Source: Actinomycetes bacterium (GTDB taxonomy: Bacteria; Bacillota; Sulfobacillia; Sulfobacillales; JAIMBI01). Taken from it: DNA of 64,000 bases. Each line of letters starts with the position of its first letter. The stretch's first letter is position 1. The DNA is taken from contig JAIMBI010000001.1 of assembly GCA_023565505.1 (NCBI GenBank), forward strand, positions 124,001 to 188,000. The letters run 5' to 3'. The position numbers and the translations under genes are program-made. A model generated the notes under the pieces. The model worked only from the letters and a program-made list of their open reading frames with translations, was not told the origin of the DNA and searched no databases. Positions 11,985-26,307 of the stretch are shown here, piece after piece.

Positions 11985-13763
11985 TCACTCCGCTGTGTCC
12001 GCGTATTGCGGATACGTTACGATGCTGCCGCGCAGGCGCTGGATCTCCTTGAACAGGCACCGGTTCATCACGACCGCCTTGCCCTGCTCGTATGCGATCC
12101 GGGCCGCGTCGGGGTTGATGACGCCCTCTTGCATCCAGAAGACCTCCGCGTCCACTTCGGCGGCCTCCTGGGCGGTTTCGAGGGCCTTGTCGCTGCTGCG
12201 GAAGACTTCGATGACGTCCACCGGTTCACGGATGTCCGTCAGCCGGGCGACGACCGGCTCGCCCAGGATGGTCTGTCCGGCGTAGGCCGGGTTGACCGGG
12301 ATGATGCGGTAGCCCATGCGCTGCAGCTTGCGCGCGACACGGTAGCTGGGACGACCGGACTGTGCGGACAGCCCCACTACCGCGATGGTCCACGGCGTGC
12401 CGTCGGGCTTCTCCGGGGAGGTGGCCACCCGCCGGATGACGGCTTCGTCGTTGAGCAAGGGGGACCGGGGGCGCCGGCCCCGCGCGCGCGCCAAAGCCTG
12501 CTCGAGGTCGGCCCACAGGTCGTCCACGTGTTCCAGCCCCACGGACAGGCGGATGAGGTCCGGGTCGGCCCCGGCCTTCACCTGTTCCTCCGGGGACAGT
12601 TGCTGGTGGGTGGTGGACGCCGGGTGGATGACCAGCGAGCGCACGTCGCCGACGTTGGCCACGTGCGACCAGAGGCCGACGCTGTTGATGAACCGCATGC
12701 CGGCTTCCACCCCGCCGCGGATGCCGAAGTTGAGCATGGACCCGAACAGGCCGCGGTCCAGATAGCGCCGGGCCAGGGCGTGGGAGGGATGGCTCGGCAG
12801 CCCGGGGTAGTTCACCCAGGCCACGTCGGGGTGTTCCGACAGCCGTCGGGCGAGTTCGAAGGCGTTGGCGCACTGCCGCTCCATGCGGATCCCGAGCGTC
12901 TCCACGCCTTGCAGGATGAGGAATGCGTTCCAGGGAGCCAGACTGGCCCCCATGTCGCGGAGAATCTTGACCCGGATACGGGTCGAGAACGCCAGGCTGC
13001 CCATCTCCCGGGCATACACGATGCCGTGGTAGCTCGGGTCCGGCTGGGAGAACCCGGGATACTCCGGCCGGTCGTAGTCGAAGTGCCCGCCGTCCACCAC
13101 GATGCCGCCCAGGGCCGCCCCGTGCCCGCCCAGCCATTTGGTGGCCGAATGGATGACGATGTCGGCGCCCCACTCGATGGGACGGCAGAGGTACGGCGTC
13201 GCGAACGTGTTGTCCACGGCGAGGGGGACGCCGTGGCGATGGGCCAGGTCGGCCCAGGCGGCAAGGTCCGCGACGGCCAGTTTGGGATTGCCCAGGGTCT
13301 CGACGAAGCACAGCCGGGTCCGATCCGTGAAGGCGGCTTCGGCTTCCTCCAGCGAGGCCACGAAGCGCACGCGGATGCCGAGGTCGGCCAGCGTCGAGGA
13401 GAGCAGGGTGAACGTGCCCCCATACAGGTCGGTGGACGCGACGACCTCGTCGCCGGCTCGGCAGAGGTTGGTCACCGTCGCGGTGGTGGCGGCCTGGCCG
13501 CTGGCGAACGCGACGGCGGCCACGCCGCCTTCGAGGAGCGCCACCCGCTTCTCGAGCGCGTCCACCGTGGGGTTGCCGATACGGGTATAGATGTTGCCGG
13601 CCTCGTCCAGGCTGAACAACTCGGCCGCATGGGCGGTGTTGCGGAAGACGAAGGCGGTCGACTGGTACACGGGCACGGTGCGGGCCCCGGTGGTCGGGTC
13701 GGGCGCGGTGCCGCCGTGGATGGCCACGGTCTCGAAGCGATAGTCCCGCGGAACGTCGCTCAT
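11985..13763 (-). CDS. O-acetylhomoserine sulfhydrylase fused to a CoA-binding domain
   Basis: Two-domain protein of about 592 residues. Residues 1-430 are a Cys/Met-metabolism PLP enzyme (ETVAIHGG start, PLP Lys in VIHSATKWLGGHGAALGG, VQPDP-type substrate loop replaced by SQPDPSYHG), with O-acetylhomoserine (thiol)lyase as best match. Residues 455-592 are a CoA-binding-domain (DUF1347/YccU-like) module: TIAVVGLSAQSGRPSYRVAR, GYRIIPVNPAYAGQTILGEPV, FWMQEGVINPDAARIA. The fused Rossmann module may bind CoA or another nucleotide and link sulfur assimilation to acyl-donor status, which is inferred. An upstream in-frame GTG would add five residues; the ATG before SDVPRDYRFETVA was preferred. Confidence 0.9.
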   Translation of the reverse strand: MSDVPRDYRFETVAIHGGTAPDPTTGARTVPVYQSTAFVFRNTAHAAELFSLDEAGNIYTRIGNPTVDALEKRVALLEGGVAAVAFASGQAATTATVTNLCRAGDEVVASTDLYGGTFTLLSSTLADLGIRVRFVASLEEAEAAFTDRTRLCFVETLGNPKLAVADLAAWADLAHRHGVPLAVDNTFATPYLCRPIEWGADIVIHSATKWLGGHGAALGGIVVDGGHFDYDRPEYPGFSQPDPSYHGIVYAREMGSLAFSTRIRVKILRDMGASLAPWNAFLILQGVETLGIRMERQCANAFELARRLSEHPDVAWVNYPGLPSHPSHALARRYLDRGLFGSMLNFGIRGGVEAGMRFINSVGLWSHVANVGDVRSLVIHPASTTHQQLSPEEQVKAGADPDLIRLSVGLEHVDDLWADLEQALARARGRRPRSPLLNDEAVIRRVATSPEKPDGTPWTIAVVGLSAQSGRPSYRVARKLQRMGYRIIPVNPAYAGQTILGEPVVARLTDIREPVDVIEVFRSSDKALETAQEAAEVDAEVFWMQEGVINPDAARIAYEQGKAVVMNRCLFKEIQRLRGSIVTYPQYADTAE

Positions 13764-13931
13764 GCTGTTACACGGCACCAGGACCGGCGCTGGCGCCGTG
13801 TCCCCCCTTTCGTCGAGGCGTCAGAACCGGCGCTCTCCGCGGTGGAGACGGGCGCCGGGCTGGGAAGTCGGCCTCATGGTACCAGACGGCTTGCCGGCCC
13901 GACAATGGGCCGCCCTGGTCCCGCACCGACG

Positions 13932-13960
13932 TTGATACCCGTATGGGTATTTGCTATCCT
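13932..13960 (+). promoter_or_regulatory. Promoter of the DUF302/Sec-glutaredoxin operon
   Basis: TTGATA (13932-13937) and TATCCT (13955-13960) are separated by 17 bp, a good sigma-A-type promoter 26 nt ahead of the DUF302 start. The symmetric operator at 13935-13950 lies across the -35 hexamer and the spacer, a position suited to repression. Confidence 0.75.
13935..13950 (+). promoter_or_regulatory. CsoR/CstR-type operator
   Basis: ATACCC-GTAT-GGGTAT has perfect six-base arms. CsoR-family repressors bind inverted repeats with a short G/C tract flanked by AT-rich ATAC/GTAT ends, and CstR sites are especially similar. The same layout recurs at 15224-15239 before the Sec-PDO gene. A CsoR-family gene lies between the two sites. 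Confidence 0.72.
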
Positions 13961-13985: not shown

Positions 13986-14387
13986 ATGAGCGCGTCCCAC
14001 TACACGGTGGCGACGACCAAGACCGTGGAAGCCGCTCTCGCCGCGGTGGAGCAGGCCTTGGCCCGACGCCAGTTCGCGGTGCTGTGGCACCTCGACATCA
14101 ACGCGAAGCTCGTCGAGAAGGGGTTGGAACCGGGGCCGGCGTTCCACGTGCTCGAGGTGTGCAGTGCCCCGCGCGCCAAGGCCGCCCTCACCACGACCCA
14201 GCAGGTGGGGTATTTTCTGCCGTGCAAGGTCGTCGTCTACAGCGACCAAGCCACGGGGGGGACCCGGATCGGGCTGCAGCGCCCCCAACTGATGGTGGAC
14301 CTGATCGGCGACCCGGCCTTGCGGCCGCTGGCCGAGGAGGTCGAGGGGCTGTTGGTCGGCGCCGTCGACGAGGCAGCGGAGGGCTGA
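13986..14387 (+). CDS. DUF302-domain protein
   Basis: Small protein of 133 residues matching the DUF302 (TT1751-like) fold. It shows SHYTVATTKTVEAALAAVEQAL, then FAVLWHLDINAKLVEKGLE, FHVLEVCSAPRAKAAL and a FLPCKVVVYSD strand. No catalytic activity is established for the family. DUF302 genes often sit beside sulfur-redox and CsoR-type regulatory genes. Here it is preceded by a well-placed GAGGAGG ribosome site and a promoter carrying a CsoR-type operator, and it is followed after 7 nt by the selenocysteine glutaredoxin. A role in persulfide or metal-thiol homeostasis is an inference from context. Confidence 0.85.
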   Translation: MSASHYTVATTKTVEAALAAVEQALARRQFAVLWHLDINAKLVEKGLEPGPAFHVLEVCSAPRAKAALTTTQQVGYFLPCKVVVYSDQATGGTRIGLQRPQLMVDLIGDPALRPLAEEVEGLLVGAVDEAAEG

Positions 14388-14394
14388 GCGCATC

Positions 14395-14631
14395 ATGGTC
14401 ATCGTGTACACGACGCCTACCTGACCCCACTGCCGGTCCCTGAAGCAGTTCTTGAAGGAGCGCAAGATCCCCTACCGCGAGGTGGATGTCACCAAGTCGG
14501 CGGCCGGTCTTGCGGCCTTGAAGAGCAAGTCAGGGCAGACCGGGGTCCCGGTCACGGACGTCAACGGGCAGATCATCATCGGCTTCAACCGTGCGAAGCT
14601 CGCGCGGGCGCTGGGTATCCGGTCGGAGTGA
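14395..14631 (+). CDS. Selenocysteine glutaredoxin-like protein (UPHC), TGA at codon 10
   Basis: Glutaredoxin-fold protein of 78 residues, read through TGA at 14422-14424. MVIVYTTPT-U-PHCRSLKQFL puts Sec10 at the N-terminal position of the classic CPxC motif. It is followed by IPYREVDVTKS, the cis-Pro region TGVPVTDVNGQIIIGFN and RAKLARALGI, the complete NrdH/glutaredoxin pattern. The local sequence TTPTUP is shared with the Sec-PDO protein encoded nearby. It is probably translated with the upstream DUF302 gene (7-nt gap) from the operator-controlled promoter. Its last 102 bases overlap the convergent CsoR-family frame. A thiol-disulfide or persulfide reductase role is likely; the partner is unknown. 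Confidence 0.9.
14429..14449 (+). promoter_or_regulatory. SECIS-like hairpin of the glutaredoxin gene
   Basis: ACTGC (14429-14433) pairs with GCAGT (14445-14449) around an 11-base loop that starts CGGTC, beginning four bases after the TGA. GGU in the loop recalls known bacterial SECIS loops. The stem is short, so support is moderate. Confidence 0.45.
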
Positions 14632-14928
14632 CGCGGCCTCGTGCGGGCGCTCGCTGAAAAACCCCGCCAGGACCGACCGGGCGGCGAGCGGGTCGGCCAG
14701 CACCGATGCCTCGGCCAGGCCCTCGACCAGACTGCAGGCGCGGACGATTTGCTTGACCCGCTCCAGCGCCCCCTCCACGGCCGCGAGCTGGGTGAGAATG
14801 GCGCGGCAACTTTCACGCCGCGCAATCATCCCTTCCAACCCGCGTACTTGGCCTTCGATTCGCTTGAGCCGACGCAGGAGTTCCTCTTCCTGCCAGAACA
14901 CTTGTCGTTCGCGCGTCGTACGCAACAC
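14530..14928 (-). CDS. CsoR/FrmR-family transcriptional repressor with atypical cysteines
   Basis: DUF156-type all-helical repressor. LLRRLKRIEGQVRGLEGMI, CRAILTQLAAVEGALERVKQIV and the segment RACSLVEGLAEA define the family. The first Cys (in ESCRAIL) is canonical. The position 25 residues later, His in FrmR and CsoR, is Ser here, with a Cys one residue earlier (RAC). The +29 Cys used by CsoR and CstR is absent. A copper site therefore looks broken and a thiol/persulfide sensor is plausible. The start is uncertain: GTG 14928 and GTG 14901 both work. The C-terminus runs about 34 residues antisense to the glutaredoxin gene, longer than most relatives. It is flanked by two matching operators. 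Confidence 0.85.
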   Translation of the reverse strand: MLRTTRERQVFWQEEELLRRLKRIEGQVRGLEGMIARRESCRAILTQLAAVEGALERVKQIVRACSLVEGLAEASVLADPLAARSVLAGFFSERPHEAASLRPDTQRPRELRTVEADDDLPVDVRDRDPGLP

Positions 14929-15223
14929 CTCCCTGGGGTGCCCGACCGGCTCGCTCCCTCCGACCGACCCCATCAGGCCGCTCTTGCCGGGGCGACGTCC
15001 GGCATCCCCGTGGGGCCGGCCGGACTCGACGCCCGGCCGCGGGCGGAGAGCCTGAGGCGGGTCCGGCGGCTGGGAATGCGCCTTCACGTGGGGCCGTGCC
15101 GTCCGCGGACGGAGAAGGCAGGCGCGCCGACGGACCCCTTCGGCGCATGCCGGTGAAACCTGGTGGGGTTTCCGGGGAAAACTTGCGTGCGGGCTGACGC
15201 CGACGCTATCCATAGGGTATTAT

Positions 15224-15242
15224 ATACCTAGCGGGGTATAAT
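15224..15242 (+). promoter_or_regulatory. CsoR/CstR-type operator overlapping a TATAAT box
   Basis: ATACCT-AGCG-GGGTAT (15224-15239) repeats the 6-4-6 layout of the 13935 site with one arm mismatch. A perfect -10 hexamer TATAAT (15237-15242) overlaps its right arm, about 120 nt before the Sec-PDO gene. No good -35 is visible. A further GGGTAT half-site stands at 15215-15220. A divergent -10 for the csoR-like gene (15219-15224, minus) is possible. Confidence 0.68.
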
Positions 15243-15360: not shown

Positions 15361-16011
15361 ATGGCGCTTATGTCAGACGAGATTCGTGAGGAAGTCCGGG
15401 AATATCTGGCGAAGATGACGGCCCCGGTGACCGTGGCCTACTACCCCAAGGACGGCGACGGGGCATCCGAGGCCATGGAACAACTCTTGAACGAGTTGGC
15501 GGCCGTCAACCCGCTCGTCCGTCCGGAGCGGCGGTCCGGACCACCCGAGGCCATCGCTCCCGAGCGGCCCGAGGACATCGAGAGCGTGGTCACGGTGCTG
15601 GAAGTGGACGGTCGCCGTACCGGCATCCGCTATCTGGGCTTCCCGGGGGGGCGGGAGTTCGGCACCTTCCTGGAGGCCCTGGTGACCGTGTCCACCGAGG
15701 CGGCCCCGACGCTGTCCGAGGCGACGCGGGCGTTTTTGGCCCAGATCCACCAGCCGGTGCACCTGGAGGTGTTCACCACCCCCACCTGACCGTACTGCCC
15801 CCGGGCGGTACGCCTGGCACACGAAATGGCGCGGGTGAACCCGCAGTGGATCACGGCGGACATGGTCGACGCCCAGAGCTTCGAGGCGCTGTCCATGCGC
15901 TTCGGGGTGATGAGCGTGCCCATGACCGTCGTCAACGGCAGTGAACAGGTGGTGGGGGCGGTCCCCGAAGGCCGCCTGGTGTCGGTCATCCGCCAGGCGG
16001 TGGGGGCCTGA
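15361..16011 (+). CDS. Selenocysteine PDO-type double-thioredoxin protein (UPYC), TGA at codon 143
   Basis: Protein disulfide oxidoreductase-like protein of 216 residues with two tandem thioredoxin folds. The N-terminal fold (residues 1-115) has lost its cysteines: the active-site strand VTVAYYPKDGDGASEAM carries none. The C-terminal fold reads HLEVFTTPT-U-PYCPRAVRLAHEM through TGA 15787-15789, replacing the first Cys of the archaeal-type CPYC motif by Sec143. The frame continues through the cis-Pro segment FGVMSVPMTVVNG to 16011. A nine-base-pair hairpin starts two nt after the TGA. The promoter carries a CsoR-type operator and the gene ends at a strong terminator. A low-potential disulfide or persulfide reductase is the likely function. 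Confidence 0.9.
15791..15812 (+). promoter_or_regulatory. SECIS-like hairpin of the PDO gene
   Basis: CGTACTGCC pairs with GGCGGTACG to give nine consecutive pairs (one T-G) closed by a four-base CCCG loop, starting two bases after the TGA. It is the most stable of the four hairpins. A stem this close to the UGA differs from the Escherichia coli layout, so SelB binding here is inferred. Confidence 0.55.
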
Positions 16012-16196: not shown

Positions 16197-16538
16197 GTGG
16201 CGAAACTGGCGTTCTGGATCATGTCGGGACCCGACCAGGCGGCCAAGGCGCTGGCGGCCTTGAGGTTGGCGGACCGCCTCAAGTCGGTGCGGCACCAGGA
16301 GGTGCAGGTGTACCTCTACGGTCCCGGAGTCAGGCTCGCAGTGGAGGGGGACGAGGCGGTTCGTCAGGCTCTTCGGGACCTCGGCGGCCATGAGGTGCCG
16401 GTGCAGGCGTGCCCGGTCAACGTGCAGCAGCTGGGTTTGGCCGAGGATGCGGTCCGAGGGGCGGGCGTGGGGCTCCGTCCGGCCGGCGAGGTCCTGGTCG
16501 AGCTGGTCGAGCAAGGGTATCAGGTCATCGGCGTCTAG
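16197..16538 (+). CDS. DsrE-family protein
   Basis: Protein of 113 residues with the DsrE/DsrF-like fold: KLAFWIMSGPDQAAKALAALRLADRL, EVQVYLYGPGVRLAV, and VPVQACPVNVQQLGLAEDAV with one Cys near residue 75, then LVELVEQGYQVIGV. DsrE-like proteins handle sulfane sulfur in sulfur relay and oxidation; a Cys in this region is the usual persulfide carrier. The GTG start follows AGGGGGG. It lies beyond the PDO terminator, so it is transcribed separately, but its position next to the thiol-redox cluster supports a shared theme. No sulfur substrate can be named from sequence. Confidence 0.8.
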   Translation: MAKLAFWIMSGPDQAAKALAALRLADRLKSVRHQEVQVYLYGPGVRLAVEGDEAVRQALRDLGGHEVPVQACPVNVQQLGLAEDAVRGAGVGLRPAGEVLVELVEQGYQVIGV

Positions 16539-25991: not shown

Positions 25992-26139
25992 GGCGGCCTT
26001 TTACGTCCGGACTTCCGCACGACGGCACGAAGCGTCCGCCGGCGGTCGCCGGGACTCCAGGGGCTATCGCTGTCGCGAGCGGTTGCTCAGGAGGCGTTCG
26101 CGAAGACGGTGCGGTAATCTACGCACCCGCCTGGACGGA

Positions 26140-26282
26140 TCGAACCTCCACCACGCCTACGAGGTTAGTTGTCGGGCTAGGACGGTGAAGTCGCCCCTGC
26201 TTGCGCATTAGCCCCTAGTTGCCGCCGGCAACCCATGTGATCCCCCGCCCACCGCGATCTGCGGCAGCTCGGCGACTCGCAT
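26140..26282 (-). ncRNA. ydaO/yuaA-type c-di-AMP riboswitch
   Basis: Reading the minus strand, the leader shows the conserved landmarks of this class in order: TCGCCGAG at the start, GGCGGGGGA followed by ATGGGTTGCC, AGGGGCTAATGCG, GGGGCGAC, GTCCTAGCCCGACA and the highly conserved CTAACCTCGTAGGCGTGG plus GGAGG (26145-26168). These match known ydaO sequences closely. It lies downstream of a TATAAT box and about 230 nt upstream of the GT20 gene. The family senses c-di-AMP and usually lowers expression of osmolyte, potassium and cell-wall genes; an osmolyte synthase fits well. Confidence 0.9.
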
Positions 26283-26307
26283 TCCAAGCGACTGCCTGTC
26301 ACGGTTG

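Follow-up and report, generated by a model that had tools for sequence, protein, structure and literature searches.

A gene in the 64-kb stretch of DNA from a Sulfobacillus-like bacterium that we analyzed (the window, by which we mean that entire stretch) encodes a 216-amino-acid (aa) selenoprotein of the protein disulfide oxidoreductase (PDO) type. As a whole, its features are best explained, with a probability of roughly two in three, if the protein is a reductase with a single selenocysteine (Sec) site and no isomerase activity that takes part in a response to sulfane sulfur. Comparative sequence analysis strongly supports the place of the in-frame UGA, the Sec machinery, the recoding signal (SECIS), the fold, the loss of the active site from the first domain, the gene neighborhood, and the shared DNA motif that we describe below.

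The in-frame UGA codon and its decoding

The selenoprotein gene occupies positions 15361 to 16011 of the + strand, and its frame, which is closed by a terminal UGA, contains an in-frame UGA at codon 143 (15787 to 15789, +), corresponding to the first position of a UPYC motif within the residues TPTUPYCPRAVRLAH. The sole Cys in the protein is Cys146 (codon at 15796 to 15798), which lies beside this one Sec in domain 2, and because there is no other Cys or Sec residue, domain 1 has no Cys at all. When we examined the Sec143 column across 130 homologous frames, we found TGA in 63 and Cys in 67, while TAA and TAG occurred in 0 of the 130, a pattern that is beyond chance. By comparison with these homologous frames, UGA codon 143 is a Sec codon, as the initial annotation had proposed in placing Sec at the first position of CPYC in domain 2 only. 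The host genome encodes SelA, SelB, and SelD, all above their cut-offs, as well as a tRNA-Sec with the anticodon tca, and its SelD gene has one in-frame TGA of its own. The host assembly is a draft of 49 contigs, which a tool estimated to be 97.6% complete with 6.62% contamination.

Were the UGA instead an ordinary stop, the gene would encode domain 1 alone, and the remainder would either have decayed or be translated into a 61-aa protein from an internal ATG (15826). We regard this as extremely improbable. Each of the two parts is an open frame under the standard code, as such a reading would have it, but it is contradicted by the TGA/Cys pattern in the 130 frames, by a covarying SECIS, and by the full set of Sec machinery. 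Furthermore, there is no clear ribosome site ahead of 15826, and domain 2 of a restart product would be missing its first strand as well as its active site. Across the 12 codons from the UGA to the ATG at 15826, changes relative to close relatives fall almost exclusively at third positions (in one example, 0, 0, and 3 to 7 changes at codon positions 1, 2, and 3), and this stretch is therefore translated. Since it is conserved at the protein level, we rejected a restart at 15826, which would have refuted the initial annotation, in favor of read-through.

A conserved hairpin downstream of the UGA

It had been noted earlier that the TGA is followed by a nine-pair hairpin (15791 to 15812, +, with 15791 to 15799 pairing with 15804 to 15812). 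This structure can indeed form, and it is the minimum free energy (MFE) fold of the 48 nt that we tested with RNA-fold, but it is not the conserved recoding signal. That role falls to a six-pair hairpin at 15801 to 15817 (+), CCGGGC-GGUAC-GCCUGG, and the two folds are mutually exclusive. Across 38 distinct UGA contexts, the six-pair helix (15801-15806/15812-15817, alignment columns 15-20/26-31) was paired in 97.4% of cells, and three of its pairs had changed on both sides. Its covariation score was reached by 0 of 500 shuffles, slid versions of the helix were only 17.5 to 49.6% paired, and RNAalifold recovered the identical helix unprompted. The loop, GGUAC in the window gene, follows the pattern NGUNN with an invariant GU and lies approximately 17 to 21 nt past the UGA. 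The nine-pair hairpin, in comparison, was paired in 80.1% of cells, with two of its nine pairs broken in at least half of the sequences; a gene with Cys (L024) can form this hairpin as well, and its loop is located approximately 10 nt from the UGA. Given this poor conservation, we rejected the nine-pair hairpin as a SECIS, and we conclude from the alignment that the six-pair, GU-looped hairpin is the conserved recoding signal. The use of Arg codons is consistent with this structure, as CGG and CGC after the Sec position are far more common in Sec genes than in Cys genes.

Three Cys-containing members of the Sulfobacillales clade (L079, L081, and L082) appear, by eye, to have retained a stem resembling a SECIS downstream of the Cys codon, which suggests that they underwent a probably recent change from Sec to Cys.

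Two thioredoxin folds and a single predicted active site

We modeled the protein with AlphaFold from 49 related sequences, with Sec replaced by Cys, and obtained a mean pLDDT of 96.8 and a pTM of 0.92. The model places one thioredoxin fold on either side of residue 115, and the fold remains intact across the Sec position, which answers the structural check that the initial annotation had called for. The top Foldseek match in the PDB was the Pyrococcus PDO (1a8l, TM 0.87), followed by other PDO and AhpF N-terminal domains. These results bear out the PDO-type architecture that had been proposed, a chain of approximately 210 aa that contains two thioredoxin folds in tandem.

Domain 1 (residues 1 to 112; 15361 to 15696, +) has a thioredoxin fold that lacks CxxC, according to the 1a8l alignment, the AlphaFold model, and the family alignment. 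The residues DGAS (15457 to 15468) occupy the place of the Pyrococcus PDO CQYC in the 1a8l alignment, in keeping with the earlier claim that the first domain is without an active-site Cys, and the proline ahead of strand E77-82 has been lost as well. Domain 2 (residues 120 to 216; 15718 to 16008, +), which contains the UPYC motif, is predicted from its match to Pfam Thioredoxin_3 (8.1e-15) and from the model to be the active thioredoxin fold, and its Pro187 (15919 to 15921) is invariant in the family alignment. With DGAS in domain 1 and UPYC in domain 2, the protein does not show the CxxC in both domains that characterizes a canonical archaeal PDO.

Mutagenesis of a Sulfolobus PDO demonstrated that the C-terminal site provides thioltransferase activity and that isomerase activity needs both sites (PMC7465337). 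Because of this requirement, we predict that the selenoprotein would be a reductase or thioltransferase without isomerase activity, and the earlier suggestion of a specialized, single-site reductase is plausible and agrees with these data.

Distribution of the Cys-less first domain

The selenoprotein has the properties expected of the published UxxC selenoprotein family of AhpF N-terminal domain homologs, including a UGA at the first Cys of CxxC, homologs with Cys, a SECIS with G in the apical loop, and a host with SelA, SelB, SelD, and tRNA-Sec. In a tree of 122 proteins, a comparison with the PDO family that had been recommended at the outset, it falls within a set of 29 Sulfobacillales-type sequences (SH-aLRT support, 99), all of which lack the domain 1 CxxC and of which 26 have Sec and 3 have Cys. 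Since closely related members of this set have either Sec or Cys but share the inert domain 1, the set provides a natural comparison of Sec with Cys at a single catalytic site. The domain 1 CxxC has also been lost elsewhere, for example in two Acidobacteria with Sec (L132 and L149) and in two Hydrogenibacillus proteins with Cys (L107 and L138). The tree requires a minimum of 7 changes for the domain 1 CxxC and 14 for Sec/Cys among the 122 proteins, and from these sequences we conclude that the domain 1 CxxC is a feature that has been lost several times, among Sec and Cys members alike.

In the raw table, Sec is present in 34 of the 46 members with a Cys-less domain 1 versus 23 of the 76 members with CxxC. 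On the tree, a sign test for Sec versus loss of the domain 1 CxxC was flat (P of 0.5 to 1), with three independent pairs (starred branches) being comparable. Because of this flat result, we claim no link between Sec and CxxC loss, and we rejected the dependence of the domain 2 Sec on loss of the domain 1 CxxC as a raw association.

The host genome encodes two more relatives of the PDO, L048 (C32:53000-55800) and L047 (C37:7500-10200), one of which has UPYC and a much shortened domain 1 and the other CPPC and a Cys-less domain 1. Shortened Sec PDO forms resembling that of the host are found in genomes G158 and G327 (L061 and L064).

Neighboring genes and an operator-like motif

Among the neighbors of the selenoprotein gene, that for a DUF302 protein (13986 to 14387, +; Pfam PF03625, 6.9e-14) precedes a 78-aa, YruB/Uxx-star-like glutaredoxin (14395 to 14631, +; Pfam Glutaredoxin, 1.4e-17) with a UPHC motif, whose UGA lies at 14422 to 14424. 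This glutaredoxin, a predicted second selenoprotein that was previously unreported, scores 82.6 bits against TIGR02196, under the cut-off of 88.55, and relatives at the same place have Cys in G327, L073, and L075 and Sec in L080, L085, and L088 to L096. On the opposite strand is a gene for a CsoR-family (DUF156) repressor-like protein (14530 to 15060, −, with a putative start; Pfam PF02583, 2.2e-17), whose two Cys, 24 residues apart, are conserved in all related loci that we examined. The protein has S and G at the ligand positions +25 and +29, and therefore has no His or Cys copper ligands there. By its sequence, then, it is a candidate repressor of the CstR type, a CsoR-family protein with two conserved Cys that lacks copper ligands. 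The gene downstream of the selenoprotein gene encodes a DsrE-like protein (16197 to 16538, +; Pfam PF02635, 3.2e-7), which was adjacent in 1 of 27 loci and which we rejected as a conserved partner. Elsewhere in the window, we observed a homocysteine synthase (11985 to 13778, −; OAH sulfhydrylase, residues 14 to 430) with an extra C-terminal part of approximately 165 residues that resembles a CoA-binding domain, and a c-di-AMP riboswitch (26139 to 26284, −; RF00379) whose score of 49.3 bits is above the gathering score.

An operator-like palindrome of the form ATACC-N6-GGTAT, ATACCTAGCGGGGTAT, lies between the divergent repressor and selenoprotein genes (15224 to 15239), and a second, ATACCCGTATGGGTAT, lies upstream of the DUF302-glutaredoxin pair (13935 to 13950). 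The 64-kb window thus contains two copies versus 0 expected (none in 100 shuffles), and the 3.1-Mb genome contains three, two of them in the selenoprotein cluster, while a reversed control pattern has 0. The third copy (L161, C32 at approximately 37061) is at the start of an MBL-fold gene that is followed by a tandem rhodanese gene, and this pair sits on a different contig from the selenoprotein cluster. The shared motif suggests, short of proof, that contigs C7 and C32 are from one organism. The solved structures closest to the MBL protein are 3tp9, 3r2u, 4ysb, BpPRF, and human ETHE1; of these, 3r2u is the CstB of Staphylococcus aureus, and persulfide dioxygenases account for several of the rest. 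The MBL protein did not reach the cut-off of a persulfide dioxygenase family, and we describe it as persulfide-dioxygenase-like on the strength of its similarity to these structures. At the level of the motif, then, a putative operator is shared with persulfide-dioxygenase-like and rhodanese genes, as would be expected of a CstR-type system.

We compared the surroundings of PDO genes in 27 Sulfobacillales loci and 53 loci outside Sulfobacillales, bearing in mind that these counts are not independent, since the loci within each group are related. Near the PDO gene, the motif was found in 21 of the Sulfobacillales loci, a CsoR-like gene in 13, rhodanese in 11, MBL in 10, and DUF302 in 10, versus 5, 7, 1, 0, and 1, respectively, outside. 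A glutaredoxin was near the PDO gene in 14 of 27 versus 5 of 53 loci, as counted by tblastn; we set aside an iterated profile search, which was uninformative because the profile picks up domain 2 of the PDO too. In L089, L091, and others, the motif, MBL, rhodanese, and PDO genes follow one another on one strand, with the CsoR-like and DUF302 genes divergent. Extra motif copies in G158 and G327 lie, by eye, ahead of rhodanese, TusA/DsrE, SQR-like, CoA-disulfide-reductase-like, and TauE-like genes. A few of the copies in these two genomes precede genes without a link to sulfur; G327 has 11 copies, some before sulfur-unrelated genes such as a protoporphyrinogen-oxidase-like gene. Outside Sulfobacillales, PDO genes with a CsoR-family gene within the flanking sequence analyzed are L145, L101, L109, L110, L127, L129, and L136. 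One of these, L145 (Chloroflexi, Sec), additionally has rhodanese, DUF302, and the palindrome near the PDO gene, from which it follows that the link between PDO and sulfur genes may be older than the Sulfobacillales clade.

These neighborhoods bear on the substrate of the selenoprotein. If it were a general reductase of protein disulfides and peroxiredoxins, its sulfur-related neighbors would reflect general redox stress and would be uninformative on the substrate. In archaea, PDO is the intermediate through which thioredoxin reductase supplies electrons to peroxiredoxins (PMC7465337, PMC7278568), the host genome encodes thioredoxin reductases (two above cut-off), and PDO genes outside Sulfobacillales are usually without sulfur neighbors, all of which agree with such a role. 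We nevertheless consider it rather unlikely, as two observations favor sulfur handling: the MBL-rhodanese pair has the same motif, and in relatives such genes are repeatedly adjacent to the PDO gene.

The divergent arrangement of the repressor and selenoprotein genes across one motif, together with the two conserved Cys of the repressor, would also be compatible with a selenoprotein that mainly resets the CsoR-like repressor, reducing its oxidized or persulfidated form and thereby ending the response. We take this alternative seriously, since SurR, the sulfur-responsive regulator of Thermococcus onnurineus, is reset in this way by a PDO that acts as its reductant, according to the part of PMC7278568 that cites Lim 2017. 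Still, 14 of the 27 Sulfobacillales loci are without a CsoR-like gene near the PDO gene, and we judge reset of the repressor to be an improbable main function.

Proposed role of the selenoprotein

Returning to the one-site Sec reductase that we favor, we infer its catalysis, electron donor, regulation, and substrate as follows. SelB would decode UGA codon 143, aided by the hairpin at 15801 to 15817. Sec143 would attack a disulfide or persulfide, Cys146 would resolve the intermediate as a selenenyl-sulfide, and thioredoxin reductase or cellular thiols would re-reduce the latter, with thioredoxin reductase as the predicted electron source. Domain 1, having lost its catalytic residues, may act as a scaffold or docking surface. 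The protein would probably be coexpressed with DUF302, the Sec glutaredoxin, the persulfide-dioxygenase-like enzyme, and rhodanese, under the predicted control of the cysteine-based, CsoR-like repressor, and it may assist in the reduction of persulfides, polysulfides, or mixed disulfides that arise from them. We propose these substrates, or the resulting disulfides, because the one-site Sec anatomy is combined with a neighborhood of the CstR kind.

We put forward a more specific version only tentatively, as possible but less than an even bet. In Sulfobacillales, a CstR-like response to sulfane sulfur could include the one-site PDO as a dedicated Sec persulfide reductase. Together with the Sec glutaredoxin, the PDO would make up the reducing branch of that response, alongside the persulfide dioxygenase and the rhodanese, and its inert domain 1 would dock the dioxygenase, the rhodanese, or the repressor.

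The Sec PDO family has had no assigned function since its listing in 2006, and the shared motif and repeated linkage to persulfide-handling genes now give it a testable role.

Comparison with known systems

The Sec PDO family is of a kind already described. Carboxydothermus and Symbiobacterium were predicted in 2006 to encode TIGR02187 proteins with Sec (Zhang 2006, PMC1794560), and such proteins appear in published lists as the "homolog of AhpF N-terminal domain" selenoprotein (PMC1794560, PMC9312934, PMC13188914). Given that prediction and the repeated loss of the domain 1 CxxC, the novelty that the initial annotation had attached to this protein was overstated. Our literature search found no paper on selenoproteins in Sulfobacillus, and as far as our searches reached, three things appear to be new: a clade whose first domain is inert, the identification of its correct SECIS, and, on sequence grounds, the association of this selenoprotein and a second one with a regulon of the persulfide type.

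Like the TIGR02187 selenoproteins (PDO_seleno_TRX), the window protein matches the model at full length (residues 6 to 212), has UxxC at the same place and a SECIS directly downstream, and comes from a Sec-decoding host. It differs from them in lacking the domain 1 CxxC and in its score of 182.9 bits, approximately 2 below the curated cut-off of 185, which the clade member L092 (205.6) and the more distant L121 (205.2) pass and L071 (179.4) fails. With the Pyrococcus furiosus PDO (1a8l), it shares two thioredoxin folds per chain and a conserved C-terminal CPYC region, whereas the Pyrococcus protein has CQYC in domain 1 and Cys rather than Sec in domain 2.

The AhpF N-terminal domain (6il7, 5h29, 1zyn) likewise comprises two thioredoxin folds of which the second alone is catalytic. 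Alignment with the Enterococcus faecalis domain (6il7) shows CHFC in domain 2, whereas the corresponding site of domain 1 is without Cys, and since this is the same layout, an inert fold followed by an active second fold is known in the wider family. However, AhpF uses Cys and is fused to a flavin reductase, while the window protein is free-standing; we rejected its membership in AhpF, as the 216-aa protein has no flavin domain and ends at a UGA stop that is followed by the DsrE gene.

Finally, the cluster resembles the CstR/CsoR regulons of S. aureus (CstR) and Thermus, where TTHA1953 is a characterized case of the CstR kind that combines two Cys with a TAC/GTA palindrome (PMC10318464). The likeness extends to a two-Cys CsoR-family repressor, a palindromic TAC/GTA operator, which in the window is putative, and persulfide-dioxygenase-like, rhodanese, SQR-like, and exporter genes. 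The Thermus motif, TACNNTACNNNNGTANNGTA, is unlike the operator-like motif of the window (PMC10318464), and the window cluster is further set apart by its Cys spacing of 24 and its two predicted selenoproteins.
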